A DNA stretch of 22,774 nucleotides from positions 7,006 through 29,779 of the IMG/VR virus record IMGVR_UViG_3300030117_001130. The stretch is one strand, 5' to 3'. The notes beneath the pieces are model-generated. The model searched no databases. It saw nothing but the letters and a program-made list of their open reading frames with translations, and was not told the origin of the DNA. The translations under genes were made by a program, and so were the position numbers. Shown piece after piece: positions 6,840-21,694 of this stretch. The first letter of the stretch is position 1, and each line of letters begins with the position of its first letter. The stretch comes from a virus.

Positions 6840-7739
6840 TTAAGCGACCACTTCGTCATCTTCAATGTCAATCATATCCGAAAGGCTGTCGGTGATAGCC
6901 ACATCATCTTCATCGTTGTGCAGGTTAGCTTTCTCTGCGTACGTATTGATGACGTACTCATTGTAGTTCTGCACCCATGCCATGAAGTCTGTGAACAACT
7001 GTTGATCAGACGGCTCAATGTCCACGACATTGGTCAGATTGACAGTGGTCACCGGCACGAAGAAGCTATTACCATTAGGCAGCTTACGCTCCTCTGTTGC
7101 AGAGTCTACCTTATGCTGAATGGGTAACCGCTTCTGCTTGGCAAAGGTGGAGAACACATCTCCCCAACCTTTGAAAGCATCACGATTGTCCACTTCCCAG
7201 ATAAAGGGCGTACTACCCAACTCTACTGCATTACCCTGATCGTCTGTAGGATTGACCAGTTCAACGGTGCCGAATATCACACGCACCCGTTTGATTTGCT
7301 TGATCAGTTCCTGCGTCTTCTCAGGCAAAGACTTGAAGTCTTGGATGTACCCAGCAGGTTTGCCGCAGTTGAAGCCACCATCATTATCTTTAAGATCAAT
7401 GTTAAGGTTATCGGCCATGACAGTTTTCACGTACCTATTAGGCGAAGTGCCTGACGCCATGACGAAACGCTTGTACATAAAGCGTTGCATGTACGGACGG
7501 ATACGTGCGGAAGAGGCGTAGTAGGTAGGACCATCTGGAATCTCCAGCTTGTACTGTCCACCCTCGACAACCTCGACGTTTACTTTCTTACCTTTTACTT
7601 CGGCAAGCCCCATGATGGGAGTGTGATGGATACGTAGACGTGCCAGAGTGTTAGACCCTTTGCTTGTACCCTCATTAGCTATGCCCATAGCTTTTGCCAT
7701 AGCCGCATAGTTGTTTGTATCTATAGTTGTCAGTTCCAT
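6840..7739 (-). CDS. Candidate ssDNA-binding protein with acidic tail
   Basis: No named family is certain for this 299-residue protein. It has a basic, beta-rich body, a cluster of Arg/Lys/Tyr around 79-92 (RIRPYMQRFMYKRF), and a strongly acidic C-terminal tail (about 275-299) ending in hydrophobic residues. That is the arrangement of phage ssDNA-binding proteins such as T7 gp2.5, whose tail recruits polymerase. It lies between the DNA polymerase and a RecB-type exonuclease, as expected for such a protein. It has its own strong promoter at 7775-7803, consistent with a need for high levels. Function is inferred from architecture and context. Confidence 0.6.
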   Translation of the reverse strand: MELTTIDTNNYAAMAKAMGIANEGTSKGSNTLARLRIHHTPIMGLAEVKGKKVNVEVVEGGQYKLEIPDGPTYYASSARIRPYMQRFMYKRFVMASGTSPNRYVKTVMADNLNIDLKDNDGGFNCGKPAGYIQDFKSLPEKTQELIKQIKRVRVIFGTVELVNPTDDQGNAVELGSTPFIWEVDNRDAFKGWGDVFSTFAKQKRLPIQHKVDSATEERKLPNGNSFFVPVTTVNLTNVVDIEPSDQQLFTDFMAWVQNYNEYVINTYAEKANLHNDEDDVAITDSLSDMIDIEDDEVVA

Positions 7740-15292: not shown

Positions 15293-15414
15293 GGATATCT
15301 CCTGTTCATATGATGTGCCACTGCCTGTTGTTCTGGCTCGTCATCGAACCAATAGTCAAGCAGGGTGTACTTGGTACGCTTGGCAATATACCGGCGCACC
15401 TCTACCTCAGTCAT
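15289..15414 (-). CDS. 41-residue small protein
   Basis: A short frame (ATG 15414, TGA 15289-15291) begins MTEVEVRRYIAKRTKYTLL and has an aromatic acidic middle (DYWFDDEPEQ). Its start lies within the end of the 56-residue gene, and its stop overlaps the start of the 48-residue gene, so all three appear translationally coupled. It has no good ribosome site of its own. Function unknown. Confidence 0.5.
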   Translation of the reverse strand: MTEVEVRRYIAKRTKYTLLDYWFDDEPEQQAVAHHMNRRYP

Positions 15415-15577
15415 CCGTTTTTTGTTTGTCCGCTTGGTACGAAACTTGTTCTCGTTTACTCGCATCTCTGTCTCGCTTTCTGTTGTACTTGGTTTTGTCT
15501 TGTACTACTTGGGCGCGGCGTCGGTTCTGCATCATTGCCTTTGCCACAGGGTTTATTCTAGTGATACGGCTATTCAT
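15407..15577 (-). CDS. 56-residue very basic small protein
   Basis: The protein begins MNSRITRINPVAKAMMQNRR, continues with a KYNRKRDRDASKRE stretch, and has about one Lys/Arg in four residues, suggesting RNA or DNA binding. I chose ATG 15577 rather than the longer frame from 15742 because AAGGGG lies 6-8 bases upstream and the upstream extension crosses a strong hairpin (15612-15652). I recognise the MNSR..RINP..KA..QN pattern from small phage proteins of unknown role. First gene after a 288-base gap. Confidence 0.68.
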   Translation of the reverse strand: MNSRITRINPVAKAMMQNRRRAQVVQDKTKYNRKRDRDASKREQVSYQADKQKTDD

Positions 15578-15583
15578 TGTCAA
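15555..15583 (-). promoter_or_regulatory. Possible promoter overlapping the 56-residue gene start
   Basis: Leftward TTGACA (15578-15583), 17-base spacer, TAGAAT (15555-15560). The -35 lies just before the ATG and the -10 inside the gene, so it could only serve the 41- and 48-residue genes and beyond. The fit is good but the position is unusual. Confidence 0.4.
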
Positions 15584-15611
15584 CCCCTTCCATACTAGAA
15601 ACGATAAGCGC

Positions 15612-15652
15612 GGGGCGGGGAAGTCGCTCTTCCAGCAACAACCACCCGCCCC
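15612..15652 (-). ncRNA. Long GC-rich hairpin in a leader region
   Basis: An 8-bp perfect stem (GGGGCGGG 15612-15619 with CCCGCCCC 15645-15652) encloses a second stem (15623-15627 with 15635-15639) and a 7-base loop. The inner stem has a G-U pair only when read leftward (C-A on the other strand), favouring a leftward RNA. No T-run follows, so it is not a standard terminator. The gap 15578-15865 otherwise holds only a doubtful 20-codon frame (15735-15797). Confidence 0.5.
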
Positions 15653-15865
15653 ACTAACAGTGTGCTTTTGTTCTTCTTCAGACCTACTAACACACCGATC
15701 CGGTGAGCAGTTTTGCCACATGCTCAGGTGGTCTTTAGTCATTGTTACGCGGTGACATTACCGCTTGCCAGTTTTCTCGTGAAGGCGCACTGACCATTAC
15801 CTACCTGCGTCTTAATTTTATAGTCGTTACAGGCTTGACCGCGTTTATACTCGCTCGACTATAGC

Positions 15866-18169: not shown

Positions 18170-18207
18170 TTGCAATTCTCCATTTGCGGTTGGTTGGTGT
18201 GGAAGTG

Positions 18208-18236
18208 ACATTACTTCCCCAAACGAAACCTGTCAA
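18208..18236 (-). promoter_or_regulatory. Leftward early promoter
   Basis: TTGACA (18231-18236), 17-base spacer, TAATGT (18208-18213), ahead of the first leftward gene; predicted transcript start is about 30 bases before its ribosome site. Confidence 0.8.
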
Positions 18237-18240
18237 GGTG

Positions 18241-18325
18241 TACCGGCGACAATTCTTAACTGCCTCATGGTTTTGTCTTCACGAAGAAGAGCGTCGGCCA
18301 TGCGACTAGCGAACCGTCGCCGGTA
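18241..18325 (-). ncRNA. Branched RNA fold closed by a 10-bp stem
   Basis: TACCGGCGAC (18241-18250) pairs perfectly with GTCGCCGGTA (18316-18325). Inside are two further hairpins: TCTTC/GAAGA (18276-18280, 18283-18287) and GTCG/CGAC (18293-18296, 18303-18306). A leftward promoter candidate at 18345-18373 would put this fold at the start of its transcript, ahead of the first early gene. It is a candidate small RNA or leader; the rightward strand cannot be excluded. Confidence 0.5.
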
Positions 18326-18344
18326 TGTTTTCGACTTCACATTT

Positions 18345-18373
18345 TACTTAGCTATACAGCGACAATTAGTCAA
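18345..18373 (-). promoter_or_regulatory. Possible leftward promoter upstream of the branched fold
   Basis: TTGACT (18368-18373), 17-base spacer, TAAGTA (18345-18350). The spacer contains one copy of the GCGACAATT repeat, a possible binding site for a regulator. Confidence 0.45.
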
Positions 18374-18697
18374 TCCCCTAGTGGATTAGCAGATTGCACG
18401 TTTTCAAATGTGCGGCCTGTCTATTGTTGGACCTACCCTTTTATTGGTTCGGAATGCGGAACCCGTCAGGCACGGTCCCCGCATTTACGTTTCTTTCCGC
18501 CCGTGTTTTACCTCACCCGCTAGTCCTACCTCGCCCCTGCCAATGTTACACTAGGTCGCACTGGTGGCCGTCGAGACGGTTCTCTAGCATAGAGCCGTTC
18601 GTATCTACCGTCTGCGGGATTGACCGCTGGCAGGTTCGGTATTGTCAAGAGGTCCGCACCTCGCAGGTTTTTAGGTTGCCTCGTCAACCGCCCCTTC

Positions 18698-18726
18698 ACA
18701 CTAGGGCATCGCGTCGGGCCTGTCAA
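18698..18726 (-). promoter_or_regulatory. Possible leftward promoter in structured region
   Basis: TTGACA (18721-18726), exactly 17 bases, TAGTGT (18698-18703). Confidence 0.45.
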
Positions 18727-18778
18727 GCCCCGCCAGTTTCGCGGGTTTAACCGCCCAGCACTGGCGCTGGTATCGTGC

Positions 18779-18816
18779 GTCAGGGGTTGTCTGCCGTGGC
18801 AGCGCGTCGTCCTGAC
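18779..18816. repeat. Structured repeat copy A
   Basis: Outer stem GTCAGG/CCTGAC (18779-18784, 18811-18816), internal loop GGTTGT opposite CGCGTCGT, inner stem CTGCC/GGCAG (18791-18795, 18798-18802). Copy B at 18892-18931 keeps the loops and inner stem but changes the outer stem in a paired way. Confidence 0.75.
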
Positions 18817-18862
18817 TGTCGAGGATATGTGGTTATCGGACTTGTCCGCCTCGACCTTCATC

Positions 18863-18891
18863 ACCCTAGCGACTTGCGCCGGGGCTGTCAA
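18863..18891 (-). promoter_or_regulatory. Possible leftward promoter in structured region
   Basis: TTGACA (18886-18891), exactly 17 bases, TAGGGT (18863-18868). It lies directly beside repeat copy B; a leftward transcript would start just before the GTCGAGG/CCTCGAC hairpin and then run through copy A. Confidence 0.42.
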
Positions 18892-18931
18892 GCCGGGGGT
18901 TGTCTGCCTGTTGGCAGTGCGTCGTCCCGGC
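18892..18931. repeat. Structured repeat copy B
   Basis: Outer stem GCCGGG/CCCGGC (18892-18897, 18926-18931), internal loop GGTTGT opposite TGCGTCGT, inner stem CTGCC/GGCAG (18904-18908, 18913-18917). Compared with copy A, outer-stem pairs 2 (T-A to C-G) and 4 (A-T to G-C) change on both sides while the loops are conserved. Confidence 0.75.
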
Positions 18932-19022
18932 GACAATTGAAAGATGGCAGCATCGGGGTTGAATGTCAACACCCCTAGTCAAGCTGTTGATTTTATTGAG
19001 GTTTTTTCAGGGTGATAAATCT

Positions 19023-19037
19023 GTTCCTGTTTTGTTC
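19023..19037. promoter_or_regulatory. LexA box 1 (alphaproteobacterial type)
   Basis: GTTC at 19023-19026 and 19034-19037, exactly seven bases apart: the GTTC-N7-GTTC operator recognised by LexA in Alphaproteobacteria. The N7 ends in GTTTT, as in box 2 when read on the other strand. Confidence 0.75.
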
Positions 19038-19080
19038 CTAGTTCGGTCATGGTTTGTTCCGGTATGGTAGCAGGGTAGGA

Positions 19081-19095
19081 GAACAAAACGAGAAC
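19081..19095. promoter_or_regulatory. LexA box 2, inverted relative to box 1
   Basis: GAAC at 19081-19084 and 19092-19095, seven bases apart. On the opposite strand it differs from box 1 at only two of 15 positions. A TATAAT lies 11 bases downstream at 19107-19112, so box 2 would cover the -35 zone of a rightward promoter. Confidence 0.75.
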
Positions 19096-19124
19096 GATAG
19101 ATCATATATAATAAGGTAGGGGAT

Positions 19125-19181
19125 ATGCACCGCCAGAAGATACCGGGTATCATTTTGAAATTGTTGTCTTTTTCACGGTAG
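19125..19181 (+). CDS. Doubtful 18-residue hydrophobic peptide
   Basis: A short frame, MHRQKIPGIILKLLSFSR, begins 13 bases after the TATAAT that follows LexA box 2 and has AAGG 8 bases before its ATG. Its basic ends and hydrophobic middle resemble small SOS-induced membrane toxins in general character only. So short a frame could be chance. Confidence 0.2.
   Translation: MHRQKIPGIILKLLSFSR
19139..19151. repeat. Short palindrome
   Basis: GATACC-G-GGTATC, a 6-bp perfect inverted repeat with a single central base, in the control region just after LexA box 2. Possible operator. The remaining sequence from 19182 to 19390 holds a further 7-bp inverted repeat (CCCGCCG 19289-19295, CGGCGGG 19332-19338) and nothing I can identify as a gene. 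Confidence 0.35.
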
Positions 19182-19393
19182 CTGGTGGCGTCAAATGATA
19201 GTCAGTCACTAGACTTTGCTTTGATTGTTGCGTCAAGCCATTGTTATCATTAAAGAATCAGGCGATACGCCAGCAATACTGCCCCAATCCCGCCGCCTCG
19301 CCCCCGCATTGCGCGACAATTCAAAGGTGTACGGCGGGTGCCACCCCCCCGTTAGTAGTATATATGTATGTAGAAGCACACAGATTAGGAAAA

Positions 19394-19619
19394 TTAAGTG
19401 TTAACCACAGAAACAACTGAAAACATTTATGCACAAAGGATGTGCAATGTGCTTAATTTTTAGGCAATGATAAATTAAATCGCGGGAATCTACACTTTAG
19501 GTATTGACACGGTATCTAGATTGTGATATAATTATATAAACTAAACGAACAGACACTTTAAGTGATCACTTAAATGTTATTTATTAAAATATAAATACAC
19601 TTAAATGTACAATTAAGTG
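19394..19619. promoter_or_regulatory. Operator-like array of TTAAGTG sites
   Basis: TTAAGTG or its complement occurs at 19394-19400, 19558-19564, 19567-19573, 19598-19604 and 19613-19619. The second and third form a perfect 18-bp palindrome, TTTAAGTGATCACTTAAA (19557-19574). The last two form an inverted pair with an 8-base gap. The near match CACTTTA occurs at 19494 and 19554. The array surrounds the rightward promoter, as operators of a repressor or replication initiator would. Confidence 0.65.
19504..19532 (+). promoter_or_regulatory. Perfect consensus rightward promoter
   Basis: TTGACA (19504-19509), 17-base spacer, TATAAT (19527-19532): exact sigma70 consensus in both boxes and spacing. 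Predicted start is near 19539, about 18 bases before the 18-bp palindrome, so a bound repressor could block it. It drives the rightward arm. Confidence 0.9.
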
Positions 19620-19634
19620 AGATGGACTGTCACC

Positions 19635-19736
19635 ATGAAGTATCTAATGTATGTTCTTGTAGCTATCATATGTGCGTATGTTGCGTACATTATGGGTGTG
19701 GCACTCGTACATACAGTTTGTGATTGTTTAAAATAA
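19635..19736 (+). CDS. 33-residue single-span membrane peptide
   Basis: A short frame (ATG 19635, TAA 19734-19736) begins MKYLMYVLVAIICAYVAYI and is nearly all membrane span, with two Cys near the end (CDCLK). The ribosome site is weak (GAGATGG 9-15 bases upstream). It is the first possible gene after the rightward promoter. A hydrophobic frame of this kind is unlikely but not impossible by chance in AT-rich DNA. Confidence 0.45.
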   Translation: MKYLMYVLVAIICAYVAYIMGVALVHTVCDCLK

Positions 19737-19755: not shown

Positions 19756-19965
19756 ATGGCTAAAAAATCTGTAAAACTATACACAGACAATGTGCTTGAT
19801 GCATTCTATAATGCTATCCGTACTAACTCACTAGACAAACTTCATATCCCCCACAGTGATGTATTCTACGTGCGTCAGGCTGTAGAAGCGCATTATGGTA
19901 GACCCTTTACCCTAAAGCATGTGGAAGATGCAATGAGGGCTGAAGGATGGTCGGAGGATAAGTGA
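19756..19965 (+). CDS. Small phage protein, unknown function
   Basis: The 69-residue protein starts MAKKSVKLYTDNVLDAFY and ends with a TLKHVEDAMRAEGW helix. The helix-strand-helix pattern could be a small winged-helix or adaptor domain but no family is clear. I prefer ATG 19756 over the TTG at 19750. The ribosome site is weak. It is followed directly by the next ATG, showing the genes are co-translated. Confidence 0.65.
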   Translation: MAKKSVKLYTDNVLDAFYNAIRTNSLDKLHIPHSDVFYVRQAVEAHYGRPFTLKHVEDAMRAEGWSEDK

Positions 19966-20178: not shown

Positions 20179-20477
20179 GCGTGAAGTATCGTGGCATTAC
20201 ATTTCCCGGTTACAACCGGCCCATTGCTTCTAACCGTGAAGGTAAGAAGAAAATGGTGCTGGCTAAAAAGGGTGACAAAGTAAAACTAATTCATTTCGGT
20301 GCAAAAGGGTACGGACACAACTATAGTGCAGCCGCCCGTAAATCATTTAGAGCCAGACACAAGTGTGACACCGCCACTGATATCCTGTCTGCTCGTTATT
20401 GGGCATGTCGCACCTTGTGGGGTGGGGCAGGTAAACCTAAACAGTCCAGCCCCAAATCTAGAAAAGGAAAGTACTGA
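20175..20477 (+). CDS. Basic conserved phage protein
   Basis: The 100-residue basic protein has the core MVLAKKGDKVKLIHFGAK (27-44), GYGHNY, then SFRARHKC (57-64) and SARYWACRTLW (72-82), and a Lys-rich tail. The combination F-G-x-K-G-Y, R-x-R-H-K-C and YWAC occurs in a family of small phage and large DNA virus proteins whose role is unknown. Cys/His spacing could bind a metal. The start overlaps the preceding stop, and its stop overlaps the next start by one base. Confidence 0.72.
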   Translation: MSVKYRGITFPGYNRPIASNREGKKKMVLAKKGDKVKLIHFGAKGYGHNYSAAARKSFRARHKCDTATDILSARYWACRTLWGGAGKPKQSSPKSRKGKY

Positions 20478-21694
20478 TGGCTGCAAAAAAGTTTAAATTT
20501 AAAAACCCCAACACTGGGATAGTTGAAGAACGCCCTGATACTCCGTATTTCCGTAATCTAGCAAAAAAGATGCAGGAAAAATACAACAAGCTATCAGATA
20601 AAGAGAAGGCTGCTATTAAGGCTCGTATACAAAAACGACAAGCAAGGCAGGCTGACACGGATAAGAAAAAACAAGAAGTCAAAGAAGGTAGGGCTGCTGG
20701 ACTTACCATGACAGAGATTCGTGCAAAGCGCATGAACATATCTGCTGATGAGTTAAAGAAAAGACAAATTGCTACTCTGCTTGGTATGGCAGAGGGCATG
20801 TCTTTGTTTATTCCCGGTGGTGTAGCAATCAAAGCAGGACAGCTTGCATTCCGTGGTAAAAAAGGCGCGGATGCAGTTAAAGCCATTAAGAATATAGTTA
20901 AGGGTAAGCAACCTGCATCTAAGACAGCACCGAAAGCAGCACCCAAGCCAGCAGCTAAAAAGGCTGCACCTAAAGCAGCACCAAAGCCAGCAGCTAAACC
21001 TACAAAGGAAGGTGCAGCATCAAAGCGTATGCCAAAAGCAGCGGCTCCCAAAGCTGCACCTAAAGCGGCAGCTAAAAAGGCAGCACCAAAGGCTGCAGCT
21101 AAGAAAGCTCCACCTAAGACAGCGACTAAACCCCAAACAAAAACGCAGGCTAAAACGGCTGCTAAAAAGGCTGCACCTAAGACAGCGGCAAAGCCTAAAT
21201 CTAAAAGGCGTCAGCTTATTGAAAAGGTAGGTCCGTTGGTTGCGGCTGGTACTATTCTTGGCGGCGGTGTTGCTGTTCAAAAACTAATAGACGGTAAAGC
21301 AAAAGCGGGTACTCCACCTCTAGGTGGTCCTAGTGATGGTCGCAAAAAGGGACCACCTAAAGGTCGTCCACCTTTGGGTGGGCCTAGTGATGGTCGCAAG
21401 AAGGGACCGTCTAAAGGTCGTCCTCCGTTGGGTGGTCCTAGCGATGGTCGCAAAAAGGGACCGTCTAAAGGTCGTCCACCTTTGGGTGGGCCTAGCGATG
21501 GTCGTAAGAAAAGAACTAACATTACTGCTGGTCCAAATACAGGCTTTGGTCCGAAGGGTAACATCTTCCCGAAGAACGCGGAAGATCGCGCACGGCTAAT
21601 GAAGCTGTATGGTGGCACTGGTAGTGCTGCTGCTAAAGCTGCTGCGGCTGGTACACAAGGCGCACTCAAGAGGGGAAAAAATAATGGCAGCTAA
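20477..21694 (+). CDS. Histone-H1-like Lys/Ala/Pro-rich protein with 18-residue repeats
   Basis: This 405-residue, extremely basic protein has a helical Lys/Arg-rich N-terminus (1-95), a hydrophobic segment (about 100-118) and a long Ala/Lys/Pro tract (144-244) with PKAA/AAKK motifs like the tails of histone H1 or AlgP. A second hydrophobic segment follows (251-268), then four tandem repeats of PPLGGPSDGRKKGPSKGR (280-327 and on), and an Ala-rich end. Such tails bind DNA by charge, so DNA condensation or packaging is plausible but inferred. Two hydrophobic segments are unusual for a free DNA-binding protein and suggest membrane or capsid contact. Confidence 0.75.
   Translation: MAAKKFKFKNPNTGIVEERPDTPYFRNLAKKMQEKYNKLSDKEKAAIKARIQKRQARQADTDKKKQEVKEGRAAGLTMTEIRAKRMNISADELKKRQIATLLGMAEGMSLFIPGGVAIKAGQLAFRGKKGADAVKAIKNIVKGKQPASKTAPKAAPKPAAKKAAPKAAPKPAAKPTKEGAASKRMPKAAAPKAAPKAAAKKAAPKAAAKKAPPKTATKPQTKTQAKTAAKKAAPKTAAKPKSKRRQLIEKVGPLVAAGTILGGGVAVQKLIDGKAKAGTPPLGGPSDGRKKGPPKGRPPLGGPSDGRKKGPSKGRPPLGGPSDGRKKGPSKGRPPLGGPSDGRKKRTNITAGPNTGFGPKGNIFPKNAEDRARLMKLYGGTGSAAAKAAAAGTQGALKRGKNNGS
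21314..21511 (+). repeat. Four tandem 54-base repeats inside the H1-like gene
   Basis: Units begin at 21314, 21368, 21422 and 21476 (the last is cut to 36 bases). Each encodes PPLGGPSDGRKKGPSKGR or a one-residue variant. Most base differences between units are silent (for example cta, ttg and ttg for Leu), so the peptide is conserved while DNA drifts. Confidence 0.9.

Follow-up and report, generated by a model that had tools for sequence, protein, structure and literature searches.

The window analysed here is a stretch of 22,774 nucleotides (positions 7,006 to 29,779) of the 34,858-bp virus record IMGVR_UViG_3300030117_001130, a relative of Puniceispirillum phage HMO-2011. Phages of the HMO-2011 type belong to the viral groups that dominate in the sea (PMC9038755). 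The left arm of the genome is read leftward and the right arm rightward, and a stretch without genes that is flanked by these two arms harbors the hairpins called M (Table 1). When the window's stretch around the M hairpins is compared with cultured phages, its match to HMO-2011 is restricted to the AT-rich right part. This AT-rich region (18990-19640) contains the repeats GTTCGTTCC / GAACAAAACGAGAAC as well as CACTTAAGTG palindromes, with ATTGATTTTATTGA-like iterons in relatives, and a conserved block at 19370-19600 carries a TTGACA / TATAAT-like rightward promoter; the region is both origin- and operator-like. Further into the right arm, 20477-21694 (+) encodes a protein rich in lysine, alanine, and proline, in which KKAAPK and PPLGGPSDGRKKG units are repeated. 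In the left arm, the start of the long open reading frame at 15407-15742 (-) probably runs through the non-coding RNA downstream of domain X, a pseudoknot described below, and the gene proper may begin close to 15574 (MNSRITRINPVAKAM...), as in the locus L187.

M is composed of an outer stem, an asymmetric internal loop, and an inner stem. On the plus strand, copy 1 reads GTCAGG-GGTTGT-CTGCC-GT-GGCAG-CGCGTCGT-CCTGAC and copy 2 reads GCCGGG-GGTTGT-CTGCC-TGTT-GGCAG-TGCGTCGT-CCCGGC, with 75 nt between them. The original prediction had placed two copies with the common inner stem CTGCC/GGCAG and an asymmetric internal loop at these positions, and had described compensatory changes in the outer stem from copy 1 to copy 2 (T-A to C-G and A-T to G-C); both statements agree exactly with the sequence. 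When read on the minus strand, copy 2 has the stem GCCGGG/CCCGGC, the internal loop AC-GACGCAC / GACAA-CC, and the inner stem CTGCC/GGCAG. As a description of the whole unit the prediction holds for these two copies and is incomplete beyond them, as it lacked a third copy, the 0.7-kb element to which they belong, and the minus strand as the most likely one. The third, weaker copy was found with a held-out covariance model (R2, see below) at an E-value of 0.049 in the window, and it has homologues in the related loci L151 (E-value of 0.024 with the same model) and L132.

Table 1. Predicted features of the structured element and its surroundings (window coordinates)
Feature	Position	Strand	Basis
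Whole structured non-coding element, predicted RNA of ~0.7 kb, CTAG-rich	18241..18934	-	Covariation, indels, base composition
M hairpin copy 2, predicted to form the 5' end of the leftward RNA	18892..18931	-	Sequence, alignment, covariance search
M hairpin copy 1, with GTCAGG/CCTGAC as its stem when read on the minus strand	18779..18816	-	Sequence, alignment, covariance search
M hairpin, third weaker copy, outer stem CATGG/CCATG, within the H1 loop	18265..18303	-	Alignment and covariance search
Hairpin domain GTCGAGG/CCTCGAC, after M copy 1	18818..18855	-	Present here, absent at the same place in L132 and L151
Hairpin Y, outer stem CGCCAGT/ACTGGCG, inner stem GCGG/CCGC, loop GTTTAA	18731..18766	-	Sequence
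Internal hairpin of the element with a covarying stem, AATGCGG/CCGCATT (AATGATG/CATCATT in L151)	18453..18485	-	Alignment
H1, left-end hairpin, TACCGGCGAC/GTCGCCGGTA	18241..18325	-	Covariation in relatives
-35 (TTGACA) of predicted leftward promoter P_nc	18964..18969	-	Sequence and promoter scoring
-10 (CATCTT) of P_nc, 17-bp spacer	18941..18946	-	Sequence and promoter scoring
-35 (TTGACA) of P_L, second, proximal leftward promoter	18231..18236	-	By eye in relatives, unscored
-10 (TAATGT) of P_L, 17-bp spacer	18208..18213	-	By eye in relatives, unscored
Domain X, pseudoknot of two interleaved helices, stand-alone here	15767..15863	-	Comparison with relatives

Relatives were sampled with the small conserved gene at 19756-19962 as an anchor, which delivered at least 80 loci with upstream DNA (L numbers), all of them on uncultured virus contigs and including incomplete ones, so that the true distribution of the element is wider than the one seen here. 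M-like hairpins are found in several of these relatives, each time at the same place and with differing outer stems, namely GCCGGAA/TTCCGGC plus a GTCAGG copy in L151, TATCGG/CCGATA in L068, L088, and L109, ATCGAG/CTCGAT in L145 and L142, and ATCAAG/CTTGAT in L137, L150, and L117; further M-like hairpins occur in L251 and L256. The core UUGUC..CGUC is conserved inside these varying outer stems. In an alignment of 12 M copies, all six outer-stem pairs have undergone changes on both sides, 98.6% of the cells are standard pairs, and the covariation score amounts to 0.673 compared with 0.203 after shuffling (0/500), and slid versions do not exceed 0.18. Not one of the 72 cells shows a one-sided change, which the original prediction had named as an observation that would speak against it. 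The standard pairs in these 72 cells also include neither G-U nor A-C despite the widely differing stems, which is odd for an RNA helix.

Because a first covariance model (R1) had been trained on the aligned M copies, the held-out model R2 was made from the two window copies alone, as had been suggested at the outset. When 57 other loci (487 kb) were searched with R2, 14 matches with E-values up to 2 were obtained, 13 of which lie within the same element and one elsewhere. The E-values range from 6e-4 to 1e-12 where M occupies the corresponding locus of other phages and from 0.02 to 1 for weaker copies, and M was recovered at the syntenic place in L132, L151, L142/L145, L150, L156, L137, L117, and L068. 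The existence of homologues with covarying outer stems supports the earlier reading of M as a selected RNA structure. The idea that M is a mobile palindrome was rejected, as R1 found no M outside of the element in 56 further loci. A strict M pattern gave 42 matches in 84,980 genomes, which is about the chance expectation, and none of them had a convincing stem and context.

The covariation is not limited to M: the aligned relatives contain covarying helices along the entire region of 0.3-0.9 kb. Helices with at least one compensatory change number 91, compared with 39±5 in column-shuffled alignments (top of 20 shuffles: 48), and compensatory pairs number 128 compared with 46±6 after column shuffling; since the comparisons among relatives are not mutually independent, these counts stand for an excess of helices and not for its exact size. 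Examples are GGCGAC/GTCGCC changing to GGTGAC/GTCACC, CCCGAT/GTCGGG to CTCAAT/ATTGAG, AGTCGG/CCGACT to AGTTGC/GCAACT, and GACCAG/CTGGTC to GGCTAG/CTAGCC. The open reading frames that overlap the element have each suffered two to six frame-breaking indels relative to the two closest relatives, the codon-position pattern is inconsistent, and no conserved reading frame is found (the control gene chosen for the coding comparison was too diverged to be useful here). Judged by covariation and indels, the element thus carries a selected secondary structure over about 0.7 kb and is non-coding. It follows that a chance duplication, or a repeated protein-coding segment as the overlapping open frames might suggest, has a practically negligible probability in view of the held-out homologues, the covariation, the frame-breaking indels, and the offset of 113 between the copies, which had already been taken to argue against a common protein reading. 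On this comparative basis, M is a unit that recurs within a long RNA, hitherto undescribed and predicted to be folded and non-coding, next to the point where the genome diverges in a group of marine phages.

At the left end of the element, the H1 stem covaries in relatives (TGGGGTGAC/GTCACCCCA), and H1 ends about 5 nt ahead of the -35 of the proximal leftward promoter P_L. A Y-like hairpin with other stem letters was seen by eye in L088 and L068. The tetramer CTAG occurs 134 times in the elements compared with 48 expected (z 12.5), making it the most enriched of the 256 tetramers and the sole enriched palindrome; the count within window positions 18243-18990 is 8. The tetramers that are next enriched in the window (18241-18990) and in relatives are GTCA, AGTC, and TCAA, and UUGACAG hairpin loops are recurrent there on the minus strand.

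It is probable, with rather good confidence, that the RNA corresponds to the minus strand and is thus directed leftward. In H1 and two further helices compared over 12 relatives, 210 pairs are Watson-Crick, six are plus-strand A-C (equal to minus-strand G-U; the six were counted as about four separate events), and none is plus-strand G-U. Pair 33-55 of domain X is found as U-G, U-A, or C-G only in the minus-strand reading, with 208/208 cells paired; moreover, domain X is co-oriented with the adjoining tRNA genes in L177, L181, L188, L189, L191, and L083, and lies ahead of a start codon in L173 and L179. Among the bases predicted to be unpaired, A prevails on the minus strand (mean A 0.47, U 0.19) and U on the plus strand. 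An automatic count over all helices gave no strand preference (41 G-U vs 36 A-C), and because about 40% of the automatically counted helices are due to chance, the small set of secure helices was used for the strand instead. The same structured RNA might also be a rightward, plus-strand transcript that has M at the 3' end: the folding-energy z-scores slightly favor this orientation (-1.16 for the plus vs -0.57 for the minus strand), and the two positions flanking the M outer stem suit plus-strand wobble better, being plus-strand G-U in most copies. Promoter position, the pairing in domain X, the bias of the unpaired bases, and the wobble in secure helices nevertheless all favor the minus strand, and the sequence left of H1 showed no sign of a conserved promoter directed rightward, which makes a rightward RNA distinctly improbable.

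P_nc would place the start of the RNA near 18934, where M copy 2 has its base, and M would then form the 5' end of the RNA. In many loci, the minus strand carries promoter-like sequences 6-9 nt ahead of M, taking forms such as TTGTGT/TTTACA and TCTAAT/TATTTA elsewhere, and these sequences score 8.2 on average compared with 7.1 at nearby positions; the match is weak or missing in L156, L145, L137, L150, and L084. The left boundary of the element is formed by P_L, whose -10 is covered by the palindrome GGAAGTGACATTACTTCC (18200-18219; GGGTGTGACATTACACCC in relatives), and the arms of this palindrome covary while its center is fixed, which is operator-like. No intrinsic terminator was recognized at H1.

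With the predicted start at the base of M, adjoining P_nc, and with no terminator seen from the element to the left-arm genes, M could also act in cis from the 5' terminus of an early transcript that runs leftward, either by modifying RNA polymerase like the put RNA of phage HK022 or by protecting the mRNA end, with the rest of the element being the leader of the left-arm operon. HK022 putL lies directly downstream of PL, comprises two stem-loops in ~70 nt, and acts with no dedicated protein, and the two systems have in common that a leftward promoter is directly followed by a hairpin of the phage RNA, with a second copy further on (PMC9378689). The comparison is one of layout: put consists of two adjacent stem-loops at the start of an early transcript, whereas M is a single hairpin whose internal loop is long, has its copies 1 and 2 at a distance of 75 nt, and is followed by a 0.7-kb structure. 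For a put-like site, another 0.7 kb under selection for structure would be unnecessary, as would a third copy ~630 nt downstream, and the second promoter P_L is located between the element and the genes. A leader that acts in cis is therefore considered unlikely.

Another possibility is that the hairpins are formed by single-stranded DNA and serve replication, for example as sites next to the AT-rich, origin-like region whose loops TTGTC and GCGTC expose GTC, the triplet used by T7-type primases. The site between divergent arms, adjoining a repeat-containing AT-rich region, would suit this role, as would the M outer stem without wobble pairs and the abundance of plus-strand GTC in the element (26 vs 14.9 expected). 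However, the strand-specific wobble in H1, h2, h3, and X is not predicted for DNA, and the A-richness of the unpaired bases on one strand and the occurrence of domain X beside tRNA genes also speak against it, so that DNA hairpins are very unlikely. A T7-like primary replication origin is made up of a transcript and AT-rich DNA, and it resembles the present locus in that promoter and AT-rich repeats are found together between divergent arms; it differs in that the predicted RNA is here directed away from the AT-rich region. An RNA primer for replication into the AT-rich region was dropped as a candidate when the RNA was assigned leftward, since an RNA that runs away from this region cannot prime there.

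The alignments further show that the domains of the element duplicate and swap between related phages. The third M is inserted into the H1 loop in the window, L132, and L151, whereas L007, L156, and L125 have no insert and a short loop instead; L132 contains about 100 extra nt ahead of M1, and the GTCGAGG/CCTCGAC domain represents an insertion or loss relative to L132 and L151. Domain X is part of the ori-side element in L088, L068, L084, and L190, and is stand-alone in the window and in some 20 other phage contigs. In the window, L083, and L173-L195, it is a highly conserved, predicted pseudoknotted RNA of 65-100 nt with the near-invariant unpaired stretches AUAAAC, GGUYAAGCC, CGACUAUAAA, and GGURGG; its neighbors in about 24 phage contigs are tRNA-Trp, tRNA-Gly, tRNA clusters, or a gene directly after X, and a permissive Rfam search of one such region (L191) gave no match. 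Other domains are common to otherwise different elements, such as one of the TTTGCCACTTCC...CCAGTGAC type in L091 and L150, and L092 and L132 have in common the domain CCTCACTGCG...CTAAGCCTNACAGGCTTGG, whose closing stem covaries.

The Rfam models include those of the large RNAs GOLLD, ROOL, and OLE (PMC12286853). At the gathering threshold, Rfam 15 including these three gave no match in the window, in line with the earlier statement that the motif was not recognized from known classes; only tRNAs were found on 18 related loci, and a permissive search of 18200-19700 yielded only chance-level matches to miRNA and IRES models. Searching 50,697 phage records by blastn with the L091 and L145 elements and with domain X yielded no relatives, and neither did a search of 72,556 plasmid records with the window element. 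Inspection by eye of the corresponding region of the cultured phages HMO-2011, CRP-1, and CRP-345 revealed no such element. A literature search gave no report of this RNA, and the main comparative genome paper on HMO-2011-type phages (PMC9038755) is silent on non-coding RNA, on intergenic regions, and on promoters.

Taken as a whole, the element likely works as a large structured RNA. The leftward sigma-70-type promoter P_nc would start this RNA at the base of M copy 2, which would become its 5' end while the other two M copies would be internal, and the RNA would extend to H1, ending just ahead of P_L. We favor, with moderate confidence, the reading that the M hairpins are repeated domains of one long phage RNA that acts as a large folded particle comparable to ROOL and GOLLD, in which M with its invariant internal loop (GACGC..GACAA) would be a docking site used two or three times. 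The docking partner might be a protein, another part of the RNA, or another copy of the RNA.

ROOL and GOLLD are large ornate RNAs of phages and prophages, the function of which is unknown and which are often located near tRNA islands (PMC12286853). They are the nearest kind, although the element is not a member of either by covariance model. ROOL and GOLLD are phage-encoded, measure ~0.65 to >0.8 kb, and have an elaborate covarying structure (PMC12286853), and the transcript predicted here is likewise a phage non-coding RNA of several hundred nucleotides with extensive covarying structure. In GOLLD one part is conserved and another variable, as in the element, and the location of ROOL and GOLLD near phage tRNA genes is paralleled by that of domain X (PMC12286853). 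A ROOL- or GOLLD-like RNA would be expected to form a homo-multimeric particle via loop-loop contacts, for which the element offers only the CTAG enrichment as a possible hint. It is unlike both of them in having no Rfam match, and, to our knowledge, neither a position beside the divergence point nor an exchange of entire hairpin domains among close relatives is known for ROOL or GOLLD. We tentatively propose, as an idea with somewhat less than even chances, a large phage RNA of a new class, assembled from domains that fold independently and can be exchanged (M, X, Y, H1, and others) and that would be inserted, lost, and re-used between phages and genome sites (beside an origin-like region, in intergenic gaps, and beside tRNA genes) and would possibly assemble via palindromic CUAG. 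The domain shuffling of the element could be traced across many genomes, and the element would offer a concrete target for the question of what role large phage RNAs play. A selected RNA of 0.7 kb would add a new class of large phage RNA to the few that are known, with ROOL and GOLLD as its closest counterparts.
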